A stretch of 64,000 nucleotides of DNA, from the NCBI RefSeq assembly GCF_004025585.1, contig NZ_QTZO01000003.1:62001-126000 (forward strand). The letters run 5' to 3'. Origin of the DNA: Pseudodesulfovibrio sp. S3. Its GTDB lineage: Bacteria; Desulfobacterota; Desulfovibrionia; Desulfovibrionales; Desulfovibrionaceae. The position numbers and the translations under genes were made by a program. The notes below the pieces were generated by a model. That model saw nothing but the letters and a program-made list of their open reading frames with translations. It was not told the DNA's origin and ran no database searches. Positions 13,282-42,413 of this stretch are shown piece after piece (positions within the stretch are counted from its first letter, which is position 1; each line of letters opens with the position of its first letter).

Positions 13282-13569
13282 CTAGCGGCCGCGTGCAGCG
13301 CGCTTGGAGGCCTTGAGCGGGTTGACCTTGACCTTACCGGTCTTGTCGACTTCTGCGCGGACGTGGGTGGCGAAATTGCAGACGCCGTGAGCCCATTTAC
13401 GCGCGGGCTGTGCATAGGTGGGGCAGAATTTCTCGTCTTCAAAGGGGACGATGCGTTCACAACCTTCACATTTCTCATCAATGGGTTCCATGACAACGCC
13501 TTTGTAGGTCAGACCTGCATCGGTCTTGACTGCGCCATCAAAGGAAACGGTAACTTTTTTCTTGGCCAT
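13282..13569 (-). CDS. PxxKW-family cysteine-rich protein
   Basis: A small basic protein of 95 aa with CEGCERIV (Cys34, Cys37), a CPTYAQPARKW segment (Cys49 and the PxxKW motif) and a further Cys near 64 (HGVCNFATH). The family of this name is known mainly from sulfate-reducing and related bacteria and has no assigned function. The Cys pattern suggests a bound metal. The tail is Lys/Arg-rich (ASKRAARGR), which could touch nucleic acid. TAGGAGGAAGG precedes the ATG. It is monocistronic, with its own likely promoter and terminator, which suggests abundant independent expression. Confidence 0.85.
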   Translation of the reverse strand: MAKKKVTVSFDGAVKTDAGLTYKGVVMEPIDEKCEGCERIVPFEDEKFCPTYAQPARKWAHGVCNFATHVRAEVDKTGKVKVNPLKASKRAARGR

Positions 13570-38574: not shown

Positions 38575-38611
38575 TAAAAAAAGGGCGCCGAAGCGTCTGC
38601 TCCGGCACCCT
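38575..38611 (-). terminator. intrinsic terminator after the symporter gene
   Basis: On the minus strand AGGGTGCCGGAGC and GCTTCGGCGCCCT pair (one mismatch, one G-U) around 4 nt, followed by seven T. Confidence 0.9.
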
Positions 38612-38633: not shown

Positions 38634-40241
38634 TTAACAGAGTCCTTCCCAGCAGAGATCCAAGTGTTTCTCTTCAATTCGTCGGGTGGCCAGACTGACA
38701 CCTACAGCCAGGGTCAGGGAGACAGGCAGGGCAACCACGTTGGGATCGACCCATTGCATCATCCACATCCACGACATGGGAGCAGCGTCGGCAACCAGGG
38801 TGACCTTGCCGAAGATGGCCTGACACAGACCAATGGGCGCGGCTTCCTTGAGATGGATGAACAACAGCCAGAACATGGAGAAGGCAAATCCGCCCACCAT
38901 GGAGACTTTGGCACCGATCTTGGTCATCCCTTTCCAATACAATCCAAGAACGTAGATGGGCAGAAAGGCTGCAGCGCACAGGCCGAAGAAGAAGGCGGTT
39001 GCCGGGGCGATGACGCTTCCGGGCAGCAGCCAGGCCCAAACCAGGGTGGCGATAACGGCCACGGTCACACCGAGACGGTTCAACTTCATGGAGGAACCCT
39101 CGTTGCCGATCTTGACGTGTTGCTCCAGGAAATCACGGGAGAGCGAGGTGCCGCCCACATGATACTGGGAGCTCATGGTAGACATGGCCGCAGCGAACAT
39201 GGCCACCAGAAAGAGTCCTGAAAACCAGCCGGGCATGATCTTGTCAATATAGAGAGGAATGATCTTGTCGAAGTTGCCCTCGGCCATGGCGATGGATATC
39301 TTACCGAATTCCTTGTAAAAGACCACGTTTGACAATGCTCCAGTCAGAAAGGCAACGCCGGTCATGAGCAGAATGAAGATACCGCCGATAGCCACGGCCC
39401 TGTTGAGTTCGCGGTCAGACGGAACAGTCATGTACCGAATGGCGAGCTGGGGTTGGGCCAGGACGCCGATACCAACACCGTAAATGATGGTGGTGTAAAT
39501 AGTCAGTCCGATGGGCGACTGGAAGTTCGGGCCGGTGGTCCAGCCAGTCAGGCCGCCTTTCAGCAGTTTTTCCGGCACCAGATTGACCATGTCGGTGAGG
39601 GCCTGATGGGCCTCGGTCACACCGCCGAGCATAGAATAAGTGGTAATGATGAGGATAAGCATCATCATGGCCATGATCGACCCCTGGAAGGCGTCGGTGT
39701 ACATGACCGCCTTCAGGCCGCCGGTGATGACGTACATGGCCACGATCGCCGTGACAATCAGCAGCCAGAAGCCGTAGCTGACAGCCGGGAAGGCCACTTC
39801 GAGCATGCGGCAAATGCCGATGAGTACGGCTGCGGCGTATACCGGGATGAAGACGAAAATGACCACGCCGGTGAACTGCTGGATGAATTTGGACTTGTAA
39901 CGCCGTCCCAGGAGCTCTGGGAAGGTATGTGAATTCAGAGCCAGTCCCATGCGGCGGGTACGCTTTCCGAAAAAGACCATGGCCACGAATATCCCCACGA
40001 AAATAGTCAGAAAAGTCAGCCAGAGCAAGGACATGCCAAACATGCCCGAAACGCCGCCAAAACCGACAATGGCTGATGTGGAAACAAAGGTCGCGCCATA
40101 GGACATGGCCAGGATGAAGGGATTCATCGAACGGCCGGCGAGCATATAGTCAGTAGATTCCCTGGTTTTCTTCCAGGCCTTATAACCGAGATAAAAAATG
40201 ACTCCTAAATATATGGCAATACCGAGGATTTTACCTTCCAT
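38634..40241 (-). CDS. sodium:solute symporter (SSS family)
   Basis: A 535-aa inner-membrane protein with about 13 hydrophobic helices and the LeuT-like SSS fold. SYGATFVSTSAIVGFGGVSGMFG (about 49-71), the TGGLKAVMYTDAFQGSIM block and AAAMSTMSSQ carry the Na+-site Ser/Thr residues. It resembles the ActP/PutP/phenylacetate-type branch; the substrate cannot be read from the sequence. A 44-aa accessory protein gene abuts its start codon, and both lie behind a Phe-codon leader and terminator, which suggests phenylalanine or a related compound. Confidence 0.88.
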   Translation of the reverse strand: MEGKILGIAIYLGVIFYLGYKAWKKTRESTDYMLAGRSMNPFILAMSYGATFVSTSAIVGFGGVSGMFGMSLLWLTFLTIFVGIFVAMVFFGKRTRRMGLALNSHTFPELLGRRYKSKFIQQFTGVVIFVFIPVYAAAVLIGICRMLEVAFPAVSYGFWLLIVTAIVAMYVITGGLKAVMYTDAFQGSIMAMMMLILIITTYSMLGGVTEAHQALTDMVNLVPEKLLKGGLTGWTTGPNFQSPIGLTIYTTIIYGVGIGVLAQPQLAIRYMTVPSDRELNRAVAIGGIFILLMTGVAFLTGALSNVVFYKEFGKISIAMAEGNFDKIIPLYIDKIMPGWFSGLFLVAMFAAAMSTMSSQYHVGGTSLSRDFLEQHVKIGNEGSSMKLNRLGVTVAVIATLVWAWLLPGSVIAPATAFFFGLCAAAFLPIYVLGLYWKGMTKIGAKVSMVGGFAFSMFWLLFIHLKEAAPIGLCQAIFGKVTLVADAAPMSWMWMMQWVDPNVVALPVSLTLAVGVSLATRRIEEKHLDLCWEGLC

Positions 40242-40376
40242 CTAAGCATCCTCCCCCGGCTTTTCATTCCCTTTATTGTTCCAGTTCACAATTCCGTAAA
40301 CCACGCACAATATCGTTGCCCCAATGGAAAGCCAAAAGGCCAACGCTATTTCAACACTTCCGAATCCCAGCATCAT
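40242..40376 (-). CDS. 44-aa symporter small accessory protein
   Basis: The short frame from ATG 40376 (a second ATG follows) encodes MMLGFGSVEIALAFWLSIG and goes on into one membrane helix (about 8-30) and a polar tail NWNNKGNEKPGEDA. Its stop TAG is directly followed by the symporter ATG, so translation is coupled. A purine-rich AAGGGGG lies ahead. Small one-helix partners of this kind accompany SSS transporters in Desulfovibrio-type genomes and probably assist folding or stability; their role is not proven. Confidence 0.8.
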   Translation of the reverse strand: MMLGFGSVEIALAFWLSIGATILCVVYGIVNWNNKGNEKPGEDA

Positions 40377-40420: not shown

Positions 40421-40455
40421 AAAAAAAGGGGCCGCAAGCTTGTCGCCTGCGGCCC
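40421..40455 (-). terminator. attenuator terminator upstream of the symporter genes
   Basis: On the minus strand GGGCCGCAGGC (40455-40445) and GCTTGCGGCCC (40439-40429) form an 11-bp stem with loop GACAA, followed by seven T (40427-40421). It ends 45 nt before the accessory gene, so it would cut off transcripts before the symporter. Confidence 0.9.
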
Positions 40456-40570
40456 TTGTTGTGGATGAATCTAACTCGCGTTACACGCACACTCCAAGAC
40501 CGCAGGCGCTTCTAAAAAAGCGGAAGCTAAAAAAGAAAAAGAAGCTGAAGCGGTTCTGTAGTGAATTCAT
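40444..40570 (-). promoter_or_regulatory. putative phenylalanine attenuator (leader plus anti-terminator)
   Basis: Within the end of the leader frame, CGCCTGCGG (40508-40500) is exactly complementary to CCGCAGGCG (40452-40444), the 5' arm of the terminator; with wobble pairs the stem extends to 13 bp (40508-40496 with 40456-40444). Either this anti-terminator or the terminator can form. A run of Phe codons lies just upstream of the anti-terminator arm. A ribosome stalled there would free the arm and allow read-through; one finishing the leader would cover it. This is the pheL/trpL logic. Not tested. Confidence 0.72.
40481..40570 (-). CDS. Phe-rich leader peptide of the symporter operon
   Basis: A 29-codon frame from ATG 40570 to TAA 40483-40481. 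Residues 8-19 read FSFFFFFSFRFF: nine Phe in twelve positions, more than in the E. coli pheL leader stretch. The tail RSACGLGVCV overlaps the anti-terminator arm, and the stop lies 25 nt ahead of the terminator stem. No clear ribosome site is seen; a possible promoter just upstream would give an almost leaderless message. The Phe run could in principle reflect only a pyrimidine tract, but its placement argues for a sensor. Confidence 0.65.
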   Translation of the reverse strand: MNSLQNRFSFFFFFSFRFFRSACGLGVCV

Positions 40571-40577
40571 GAAAAAT

Positions 40578-40606
40578 TCATTAGTCTTAACCAGTGACAA
40601 AGTCAA
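40578..40606 (-). promoter_or_regulatory. possible promoter for the Phe-rich leader
   Basis: TTGACT (40606-40601) and a weak TAATGA (40583-40578) have a 17-nt spacer on the minus strand. Transcription would begin near 40571-40570, at the leader's ATG. The remaining part of the gap up to 40883 is AT-rich and shows no gene; a TTGACA at 40738-40743 on the plus strand may belong to the next operon. Confidence 0.35.
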
Positions 40607-40883: not shown

Positions 40884-42413
40884 TTGCTTTTTCAGCCCAT
40901 CAACAAGAACTACCATGAGTTTTGCATCGAGCGGGACTCCGACCTGTGCATAAACTGCAAGGTCTGTGTCCGTCAGTGCTCGTATGAAGCTCATTTTTGG
41001 GATGAAGCCCGGCAAAAAGTCATGCACGACAATACCAAGTGCATCGGCTGCCACCGCTGCGAAGCCCTGTGTCCCACAGCCGCCCTGAATATCGTCAACA
41101 AGCCGTCTGACTTCAGGACAAACAAGCTGTGGCGTCCCGTGTTCCTGCAGAACATTTACAAACAGGCGGATACTGGCGGCGTTCTTCTGGCAGGCATGGG
41201 TTCACCTGTGGATATCCCGGTTTACTGGGACCATATCCTGCTTGATGCCAGCCAGGTGACCAATCCGTCCATCGACCCTCTGCGCGAGCCGATGGAGCTC
41301 AAGACCTTTCTTGGTGCCAAACCGCGAAAATTGGACATCGTCACGGACAAGAAGACCGGCAAACCGAAACTGAAAACCAAACTGACTCCGCAACTTGAGC
41401 TTGATGTTCCGATCATGTTCGCGGCCATGAGCTTCGGTGCCATCAATTTCAATCTCCATCGGGCAATGGCCCGTGCAGCCACGGAAACCGGCACCTATTA
41501 CAACACAGGTGAAGGCGGTCTGCACAAGTCATTATATAAATACGGCGCCAACACCATCGTTCAGGTGGCGTCCGGTCGTTTCGGGGTGCATCGCGACTAC
41601 CTTCAGGCTGGTGCAGGTATCGAAATCAAGGTGGGGCAGGGTGCAAAGCCCGGCATCGGCGGCCATCTGCCCGGCGAAAAGATCAACGACAAGGTGTCCG
41701 AGACCCGGATGGTTCCCATCGGTTCCGATGCCATTTCTCCGGCACCGCACCATGATATCTATTCCATTGAAGACCTGCTTCAGCTCATATACGCGCTGAA
41801 GGAGGCCTCTGAATACAAGGCCCCGGTATCGGTCAAGATCGCTGCCGTGCACAACGTGGCCGCCATAGCTTCGGGCATTGCCCGGGCCGGTGCGGACATC
41901 ATCACCATTGACGGTATGCGCGGCGGAACGGGTGCGGCTCCGGCCATGATCCGTGACAACGTGGGCATTCCCATCGAACTGGCCCTTGCCCAGGTGGATC
42001 AGCGTTTACGCGACGAGGGCATCCGGAACAACGTCTCCGTGGTCGCTGCCGGCGGCATCCGTTGTTCCGGCGACGTCATCAAGGCCATCGCCCTGGGGGC
42101 GGACGCTGTGTACATCGGAACGGCCACCCTGATCGCCGTGGGCTGTACCATATGCGGTCGGTGTTACACCGGCAAATGTCCGTGGGGCATCGCCACCAAC
42201 GATCCCAAGCTGTCCAAACGCCAGAATCCGGATATCGCAGCCAAAAAACTGGCCAATCTCATCCGGGCCTGGGGCCATGAAATTGAGGAAATGCTCGGAG
42301 GCATGGGGCTGAACTCCATCGAGTCTCTTCGCGGCAACCGCGACAAGCTGCGCGGCGTGGGCATATCCGACACTGAACTCGACATCCTCGGCATCAAACA
42401 TGCCGGACGCTAA
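40884..42413 (+). CDS. glutamate synthase FMN/synthase domain (archaeal-type, ferredoxin-fused)
   Basis: A 509-aa protein with two N-terminal 4Fe-4S sites (CINCKVCVRQC at 22-32 and CIGCHRCEALCP at 52-63) joined to a TIM-barrel glutamate synthase core: MSFGAINFNLHRAMARAA, NTGEGGLHKSLYKYG, GQGAKPGIGGHLPGEKIN, DGMRGGTGAAPAMIRDNVG and a CTICGRCYTGKCPWG cluster near 430. It would use reductant to turn 2-oxoglutarate and ammonia into glutamate. The start is TTG 40884 behind AGAGG. The other GltS parts (ferredoxin, reductase, amidotransferase, GXGXG domain) follow as separate genes. Confidence 0.88.
   Translation: MLFQPINKNYHEFCIERDSDLCINCKVCVRQCSYEAHFWDEARQKVMHDNTKCIGCHRCEALCPTAALNIVNKPSDFRTNKLWRPVFLQNIYKQADTGGVLLAGMGSPVDIPVYWDHILLDASQVTNPSIDPLREPMELKTFLGAKPRKLDIVTDKKTGKPKLKTKLTPQLELDVPIMFAAMSFGAINFNLHRAMARAATETGTYYNTGEGGLHKSLYKYGANTIVQVASGRFGVHRDYLQAGAGIEIKVGQGAKPGIGGHLPGEKINDKVSETRMVPIGSDAISPAPHHDIYSIEDLLQLIYALKEASEYKAPVSVKIAAVHNVAAIASGIARAGADIITIDGMRGGTGAAPAMIRDNVGIPIELALAQVDQRLRDEGIRNNVSVVAAGGIRCSGDVIKAIALGADAVYIGTATLIAVGCTICGRCYTGKCPWGIATNDPKLSKRQNPDIAAKKLANLIRAWGHEIEEMLGGMGLNSIESLRGNRDKLRGVGISDTELDILGIKHAGR

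Follow-up and report, generated by a model that had tools for sequence, protein, structure and literature searches.

An element on the minus strand (40606-40421) of the analysed window, a 64,000-nucleotide stretch of Pseudodesulfovibrio sp. S3 DNA, precedes the genes of a small accessory protein and of a sodium:solute symporter of the SSS family. It is very probably a transcription attenuator of the trpL/pheL kind that works through the ribosome, responds to phenylalanine and controls both genes as a unit. The element belongs to a family of aromatic attenuators of the Desulfovibrionales, in which the codons of the leader match the genes located downstream. The features of the locus are the following:

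40578..40606, minus strand: promoter, with TTGACT at 40606-40601, a 17-nt spacer and TAATGA at 40583-40578
40481..40570, minus strand: leader peptide ORF of 29 aa, MNSLQNRFSFFFFFSFRFFRSACGLGVCV, stop at the end, predicted to be leaderless
40514..40549, minus strand: regulatory codons, residues 8-19 (FSFFFFFSFRFF), with 9 Phe codons
40496..40508, minus strand: region 2, the 5' arm of the antiterminator, CGCCTGCGGTCTT, within leader codons 21-25
40444..40456, minus strand: region 3, the 3' arm of the antiterminator, AGGGCCGCAGGCG, which doubles as the 5' arm of the terminator
40421..40455, minus strand: intrinsic terminator, with an 11-bp stem (40455-40429), a loop of 5 and then C plus seven T
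40242..40376, minus strand: symporter small accessory protein of 44 aa (NF045580 match), with the Shine-Dalgarno-like AGGGGG upstream
38634..40241, minus strand: SSS-family sodium:solute symporter of 535 aa (PF00474), a predicted Na+/phenylalanine importer by inferred substrate
38576..38611, minus strand: terminator-like hairpin and T tract located 3' of the symporter gene, stem 38611-38582
40884-42413, plus strand: divergent ORF on the other side of the element

The coordinates, codons, complementarity and terminator given in the original prediction were all confirmed on the minus strand. The segment CGCCTGCGG (40508-40500) is complementary to 40452-40444 at every position, and the antiterminator extends to 13 bp (40508-40496 with 40456-40444), consisting of 11 Watson-Crick and 2 G-U pairs. 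Enteric pheL, pheM and trpL combine a short leader ORF, a run of regulatory codons and an antiterminator that overlaps a terminator. A leader ORF with a codon run and overlapping antiterminator and terminator are found here too, but the present element stands before a transporter, has no ribosome site and carries the leader stop beyond region 2, and its region 1 is putative.

Leaders and symporters in related genomes

The symporter was found in 32 of the 36 genomes of the genus searched (E <= 1e-60), and an in-frame Phe-rich leader with a terminator is present in all 30 congeneric genomes that could be assessed; 28 of these leaders come from the 30 loci fetched, and G003 and G011 contribute one copy each. 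Loci L033 and L034 were not assessable because the contig ends too near the gene. Second symporter copies in G003 (L075) and G011 (L074) are without any leader. Of the 288 genomes searched in the family, 67 have the symporter. Among these, 35 are outside the genus; the leader is present in 26 of them, which fall into three genus groups (13 in g34, 10 in g24 and 3 in g37), and absent from the copies in the other 9. In total, 63 leaders were collected, 57 rich in Phe and 6 rich in Tyr.

Extension of the search to the order (348 genomes) added four genomes: one with a Phe leader, but with TTGAC missing at the usual place (L078), one with a mixed Phe/Tyr leader (L079) and two without leader. The L079 leader, MNNQVVSSFYFYGYYFFGRYRTAAK, precedes the symporter of a distant relative within the order (G334), and its change of residue is apparently independent. 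In the phylum, a sample of 395 genomes from a larger group yielded 34 further copies, and none of the 33 that were fetched (G512 was left out) showed a promoter-spaced leader or a terminator in the scan; four of these loci (L083, L099, L106 and L113) contain chance-like ORFs only, with four F, W or Y. The absence of a leader at many copies in the family, order and phylum, as well as at L074 and L075, indicates that the transporter does not need attenuator control.

In 22 of the 28 congeneric leaders, which are of equal length and have an alignable core, TTT and TTC vary synonymously at codons 8, 14, 16 and 18, and Phe is not universal at three of its nine positions (codon 8 is Phe in 19/22, codon 10 in 21/22 and codon 12 in 19/22). 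The shorter leaders L020 and L024, which are of the same type, differ by whole codons. An inverted repeat at the end of the Phe run, CGCTT-TTTTAG-AAGCG (window 40507-40522, minus strand), is possibly a pause hairpin, and its codons are near-invariant in the same 22 leaders. The refutation test named in the original prediction had a sequence part, which concerned conservation among relatives; Phe codons, frame and complementarity were all found to be conserved, which supports the attenuator interpretation.

Tandem symporters, each preceded by its own attenuator, are present in six g24 genomes of a sister genus (G177, G179 and G182-G185; loci L054, L056, L059, L061, L062 and L065). One leader of each pair is like MNKLNTNFFFAFFGFRGIQACGSVECV and rich in Phe, and the other is like MNTINRHMNSYFYAYYGYRVIKTCGSVECV and rich in Tyr. 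The remaining g24 genomes have one or two copies with Phe leaders, and in G180 only the first of two successive copies carries a leader. A tree of 114 symporters, constructed by a quick method without bootstrap, places the Tyr copies in a single clade (SH-aLRT 98) adjoined by their Phe sisters (99). Symporters with Tyr leaders and their sisters with Phe leaders show fixed differences that include positions 294, 295, 298 and 422. At positions 295/298, the six Tyr copies have G/Y, the six Phe sisters F/F and the 52 other Phe-leader copies G/F; the fixed differences are suggestive only. The Phe and Tyr leaders of the paralogues tie the residue of the leader to the transporter, and this natural codon swap is the strongest sign that the leader follows the substrate.

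The symporter of the window matches PF00474 with 175 bits (gathering score 22.8) and is under the equivalog cut-offs of PutP (190.9 vs 515.5) and PanF (170.5 vs 328.05), and the 44-aa protein is over the cut-off of the NF045580 model, named 'symporter small accessory protein' (55.1 vs 35 bits). Solved SSS structures are distant relatives only (best 2xq2, E 4e-15), and an AlphaFold2 model of the symporter, made with the window sequence and six close relatives, was unusable (mean pLDDT 36.2, pTM 0.33). No report of an SSS member with an aromatic amino acid as substrate was found in searches of open-licence papers, so that the assignment of the substrate derives from the regulatory link alone. 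From this link, phenylalanine itself is a likely substrate of the symporter. It is less likely, although by no means far-fetched, that a genuine Phe-sensing attenuator controls the import of some other nutrient that is useful when Phe is short, such as an aryl acid, a peptide or amino acids in general, since regulation is no proof of substrate, SSS members carry many different solutes and many homologues of the symporter are without attenuator. However, a duplicate of the same transporter has a leader with Tyr codons, and the simplest reading of that duplicate is that its substrate has changed from Phe to Tyr.

Promoter spacing and the start of the leader

The sequence TTGAC starts 35-38 nt before the leader ATG in 63/63 leaders, the distance being 36 nt in the element of the window. 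This spacing is obtained in 62/63 when the nearest match is taken, because the Tyr copy of L054 has TTGAC at both 7 nt and 37 nt. By comparison, TTGAC was found at that distance in only 1 of 48 accessory-gene starts (those located by motif among 63), and 32-42 nt before the first ATG in 7 of the 444 ORFs of 30 aa or more in the window. Shine-Dalgarno-like tetramers precede 11/63 leaders (15% expected from composition) versus 48/48 accessory starts. When the last 120 nt were scored, the best promoter ended at a distance of 6-10 nt upstream of the ATG in 58 leaders, and it was located elsewhere in the other 5. The promoter scan with a threshold of 9 of 12 did not report the leader promoter, and the numbers of promoter-like and terminator-like hits in the region are not clearly above those of shuffles; the promoter is supported because its spacing is fixed across relatives.

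With a -35 box located 36 nt before the AUG, the transcript is predicted to start at the AUG or within 1-2 nt of it, and the leader is probably translated leaderless. The lack of a ribosome site, a caveat of the original prediction, would be explained by a promoter predicted to place the transcript start at the AUG. An ordinary 5' untranslated region with a ribosome site, transcribed from an undetected promoter further upstream and leaving the TTGAC spacing as a relic, is improbable. Such an arrangement could draw on the threshold scan, which missed the site at TTGAC, on the weak -10 boxes and on the 5/63 leaders with the best promoter elsewhere, but it has against it the constancy of TTGAC in 63/63 symporter leaders (35-38 nt) and in 48/49 leaders of the operon described below (35-39 nt), as well as the lack of Shine-Dalgarno enrichment upstream of the symporter leaders.

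Leaderless leader peptides have been described for trpL of Sinorhizobium meliloti, whose transcript begins at the ATG (PMC7298713), and for leuL, trpL, ilvL, metL and thrL of Streptomyces lividans, where metL precedes the MetNIQ importer (PMC8079986). Both the leaderless arrangement and the transporter target therefore have precedent. These leaders belong to other bacterial groups and concern other amino acids, and neither a Phe or Tyr case nor a leader swap between paralogues appears in the portions of these two papers considered here.

Alternative RNA structures and the proposed switch

Folding of the element yielded a z of -4.14, with 0/200 shuffles as good as the real sequence, and its antiterminator score was reached by 0/100 shuffled ORFs. 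When this control was applied to 62 of the 63 leaders (L037 was omitted, its terminator having been mis-picked), 37 had 0/100 shuffles as good and 59 had at most 5/100. For L031, L050 and L053, 9-10 of 100 shuffles scored equally well, and one antiterminator pair is broken in L030 and L031.

Covariation was analysed in 62 of the 63 leaders, after dropping L014, identical to L012. In the antiterminator, 88.5% of the cells are paired versus 35-41% when slid one to three columns, with double-sided change at 5/13 pairs; in the terminator, the corresponding values are 94.4% versus 24-56%, with double-sided change at 6/11 pairs. For both structures, the percentage paired, the number of cells with double-sided change and the covariation score were reached by 0-1 of 500 shuffles. 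Two other measures stood out less from the shuffles. As many pairs with double-sided change were present in 16/500 shuffles for the antiterminator and in 112/500 for the terminator, and as many pair types in 41/500 and 499/500, respectively. In the Tyr copies ACCTGCGG pairs with CCGCAGGT, and in their Phe sisters GCCTGCGG pairs with CCGCAGGC, so that A-U replaces G-C; this is probably one change inherited by the six Tyr copies within their clade. A U-A pair has become A-U, with both sides changed, in the operon elements L160 and L165. The 1:2 anti-antiterminator comprises 9 pairs in the full-length fold of the window sequence, with 79.1% of the cells paired in the alignment, 15 rows gapped and covariation no better than in shuffles.

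An RNA that ends before region 4 folds into the 2:3 structure (segment -34.4 kcal/mol). The complete RNA folds into 3:4 (hairpin -23.9) whichever 5' part is masked, and the switch must therefore be kinetic. Masking to nt 66-70 of the leader reduces the stability before region 4 to -22.2 and -15.2, the 2:3 pairs themselves having been counted only to nt 62 in this series.

In the proposed mechanism, transcription would start at the leader AUG and a ribosome would load at the 5' end of the transcript with no Shine-Dalgarno site to guide it. If charging of tRNA-Phe is poor, the ribosome would stall in the Phe run (codons 8-19), leaving region 2 free to pair with the emerging region 3; the terminator would not form and the polymerase would read on. 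When tRNA-Phe is charged, the ribosome would reach the stop and disrupt or cover region 2, region 3 would pair with region 4 and transcription would end at the T run. A shortage of charged tRNA-Phe would in this way raise the level of the probable Na+/phenylalanine importer.

Homologous elements before aromatic genes

Two further elements are present in the same genome (G000):

L118:13537-13632 (G000, contig 6), minus strand: second element, with the F/Y/W composite leader MNATTVSNAYFSNFYFWYWYNHARGLGRGAV, an antiterminator and a terminator, before the aro-phe-tyr-trp operon
G000:C4:120998-121090 (L200), minus strand: third element, with the Phe-rich leader MHNITARFFFFFSFYFRNTCGLGVR and TTGAC 36 nt upstream, before a second ADH synthase (TIGR01949)

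The operon includes genes for ADH synthase, dehydroquinate synthase II, prephenate dehydratase, aroA, a prephenate dehydrogenase-like protein, a trpE-like protein and trpG, D, F and B, the best model matches of the prephenate dehydrogenase-like and trpE-like genes being below cut-offs. A match to ADH synthase was found in 258 of 287 genomes, and 49 operon loci were examined, of which the search supplied 30 and 19 were selected by hand; 34 of the 49 are congeneric and 15 belong to other genera. All 49 leaders include Phe, Tyr and Trp, and TTGAC is located 35-39 nt upstream in 48. At L166 (G178) the leader is mixed F/Y/W, but TTGAC is missing at the usual distance, and the start or the promoter may differ. 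Weak operon antiterminators, for which shuffles were as good, were those of L163 (50/60), L135 (18), L142 (7), L144 (6) and L140 (4). The E. coli ilvGMEDA leader is also multivalent and responds to several end products, but these are branched-chain amino acids and not aromatic ones.

A covariance model was trained on 34 elements of both kinds, including the operon and symporter elements of the own genome. In a search that covered 60 relatives under stricter filters, it gave three matches at E <= 0.01 in the own genome: the operon element (76.4 bits) and the symporter element (73 bits), both inside the training set, and the third element (58.6 bits), which is outside it. The congeneric third elements have a Phe-rich leader in 17/17 fetched, with TTGAC at 36-37 nt (the weakest, L215, has four Phe), and the order-level elements L217-L219 have mixed F/Y/W leaders. 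The arrangement at L200 gives the impression that one first-step isozyme is under general aromatic control and the other under Phe control. As many as 11 model matches were obtained in G031 and more than three in several relatives, many of them weak; one extra match is the opposite strand of a true element, and further attenuators may hide among the matches.

A leader scan of the window, of L118 and of the PheS locus L119 found two aromatic leaders and none at the PheS locus; an Arg-rich candidate at window position 13396 was weak and was attributed to chance. No Rfam family reaches its gathering score for the element. The sole leader family seen was Thr_leader (14 bits vs 55, E 8.6), and the best by E-value of the 7 families listed was BjrC68 (20.1 vs 39, E 0.011). 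A putative attenuator before the aroA'-aroB'-pheA-aroF-tyrA-trp supraoperon of Desulfovibrio vulgaris, taken from Merino's database, appears in Table 7 of a 2005 paper (PMC1173090), and it is probably the operon homologue of the present element. It is listed there without a leader peptide, a term that occurs 0 times in the main text, and neither a symporter element nor a leaderless start is described in the portions of the paper considered here.

These homologues modify one aspect of the original prediction, which had placed the element before a transporter rather than a biosynthetic operon: the transporter target stands, but the same type of element is also located before the aromatic operon and the ADH-synthase isozyme of this genome. 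They also bear on two other readings of the leader. The short ORF could encode a functional small protein, for instance a membrane-active peptide, the terminator being incidental or ending a short RNA only; this is very unlikely, because the strong conservation of the C-terminal half (RFFRSACGLGVC) in the genus, which would favor a protein, coincides with the antiterminator arm, and the Phe run becomes Tyr or mixed F/Y/W in homologues that keep the RNA pairing. Even less credible is that the Phe codons, which are TTY in a T-rich run, are a by-product of a pyrimidine tract (for an RNA-binding protein, Rho loading or slippage) without ribosome stalling, since the Tyr-leader paralogues have TAT/TAC codons instead of the tract, the operon homologues encode Trp and Tyr, and the length variants keep the frame. 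The Tyr-codon leader of the paralogue and the Trp and Tyr codons of the operon homologue thereby remove the caveat about the pyrimidine tract that accompanied the original prediction.

Amino acid attenuators, leaderless leaders and a transporter target (metL-MetNIQ, PMC8079986) were already known. No report of a Desulfovibrio leader peptide, of a leaderless leader in Desulfovibrio or of an F/Y/W leader was found in searches of open-licence papers. As far as these searches reach, the new aspects are the Phe/Tyr attenuator pair on SSS paralogues, the prediction of an aromatic substrate and the leaderless F/Y/W family in sulfate reducers.

The attenuator reading adds for sulfate reducers a probable family of aromatic attenuators that are leaderless and multivalent. 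One attenuator seems to sense a different amino acid since a gene duplication, in what amounts to a natural experiment of codon swapping. The reading also offers a clue, from sequence only, to what an SSS subfamily transports. On balance, although with considerable reserve, the elements may form a leaderless aromatic regulon of the Desulfovibrionales, in which one switch has been copied and re-coded for each gene (Phe, Tyr and Trp for the operon, Phe for the ADH-synthase isozyme and the symporter, and Tyr for the symporter duplicate) and in which this SSS subfamily would consist of Na-driven Phe/Tyr importers. If this is true, the codons of the leader would read out the specificity of the transporter.
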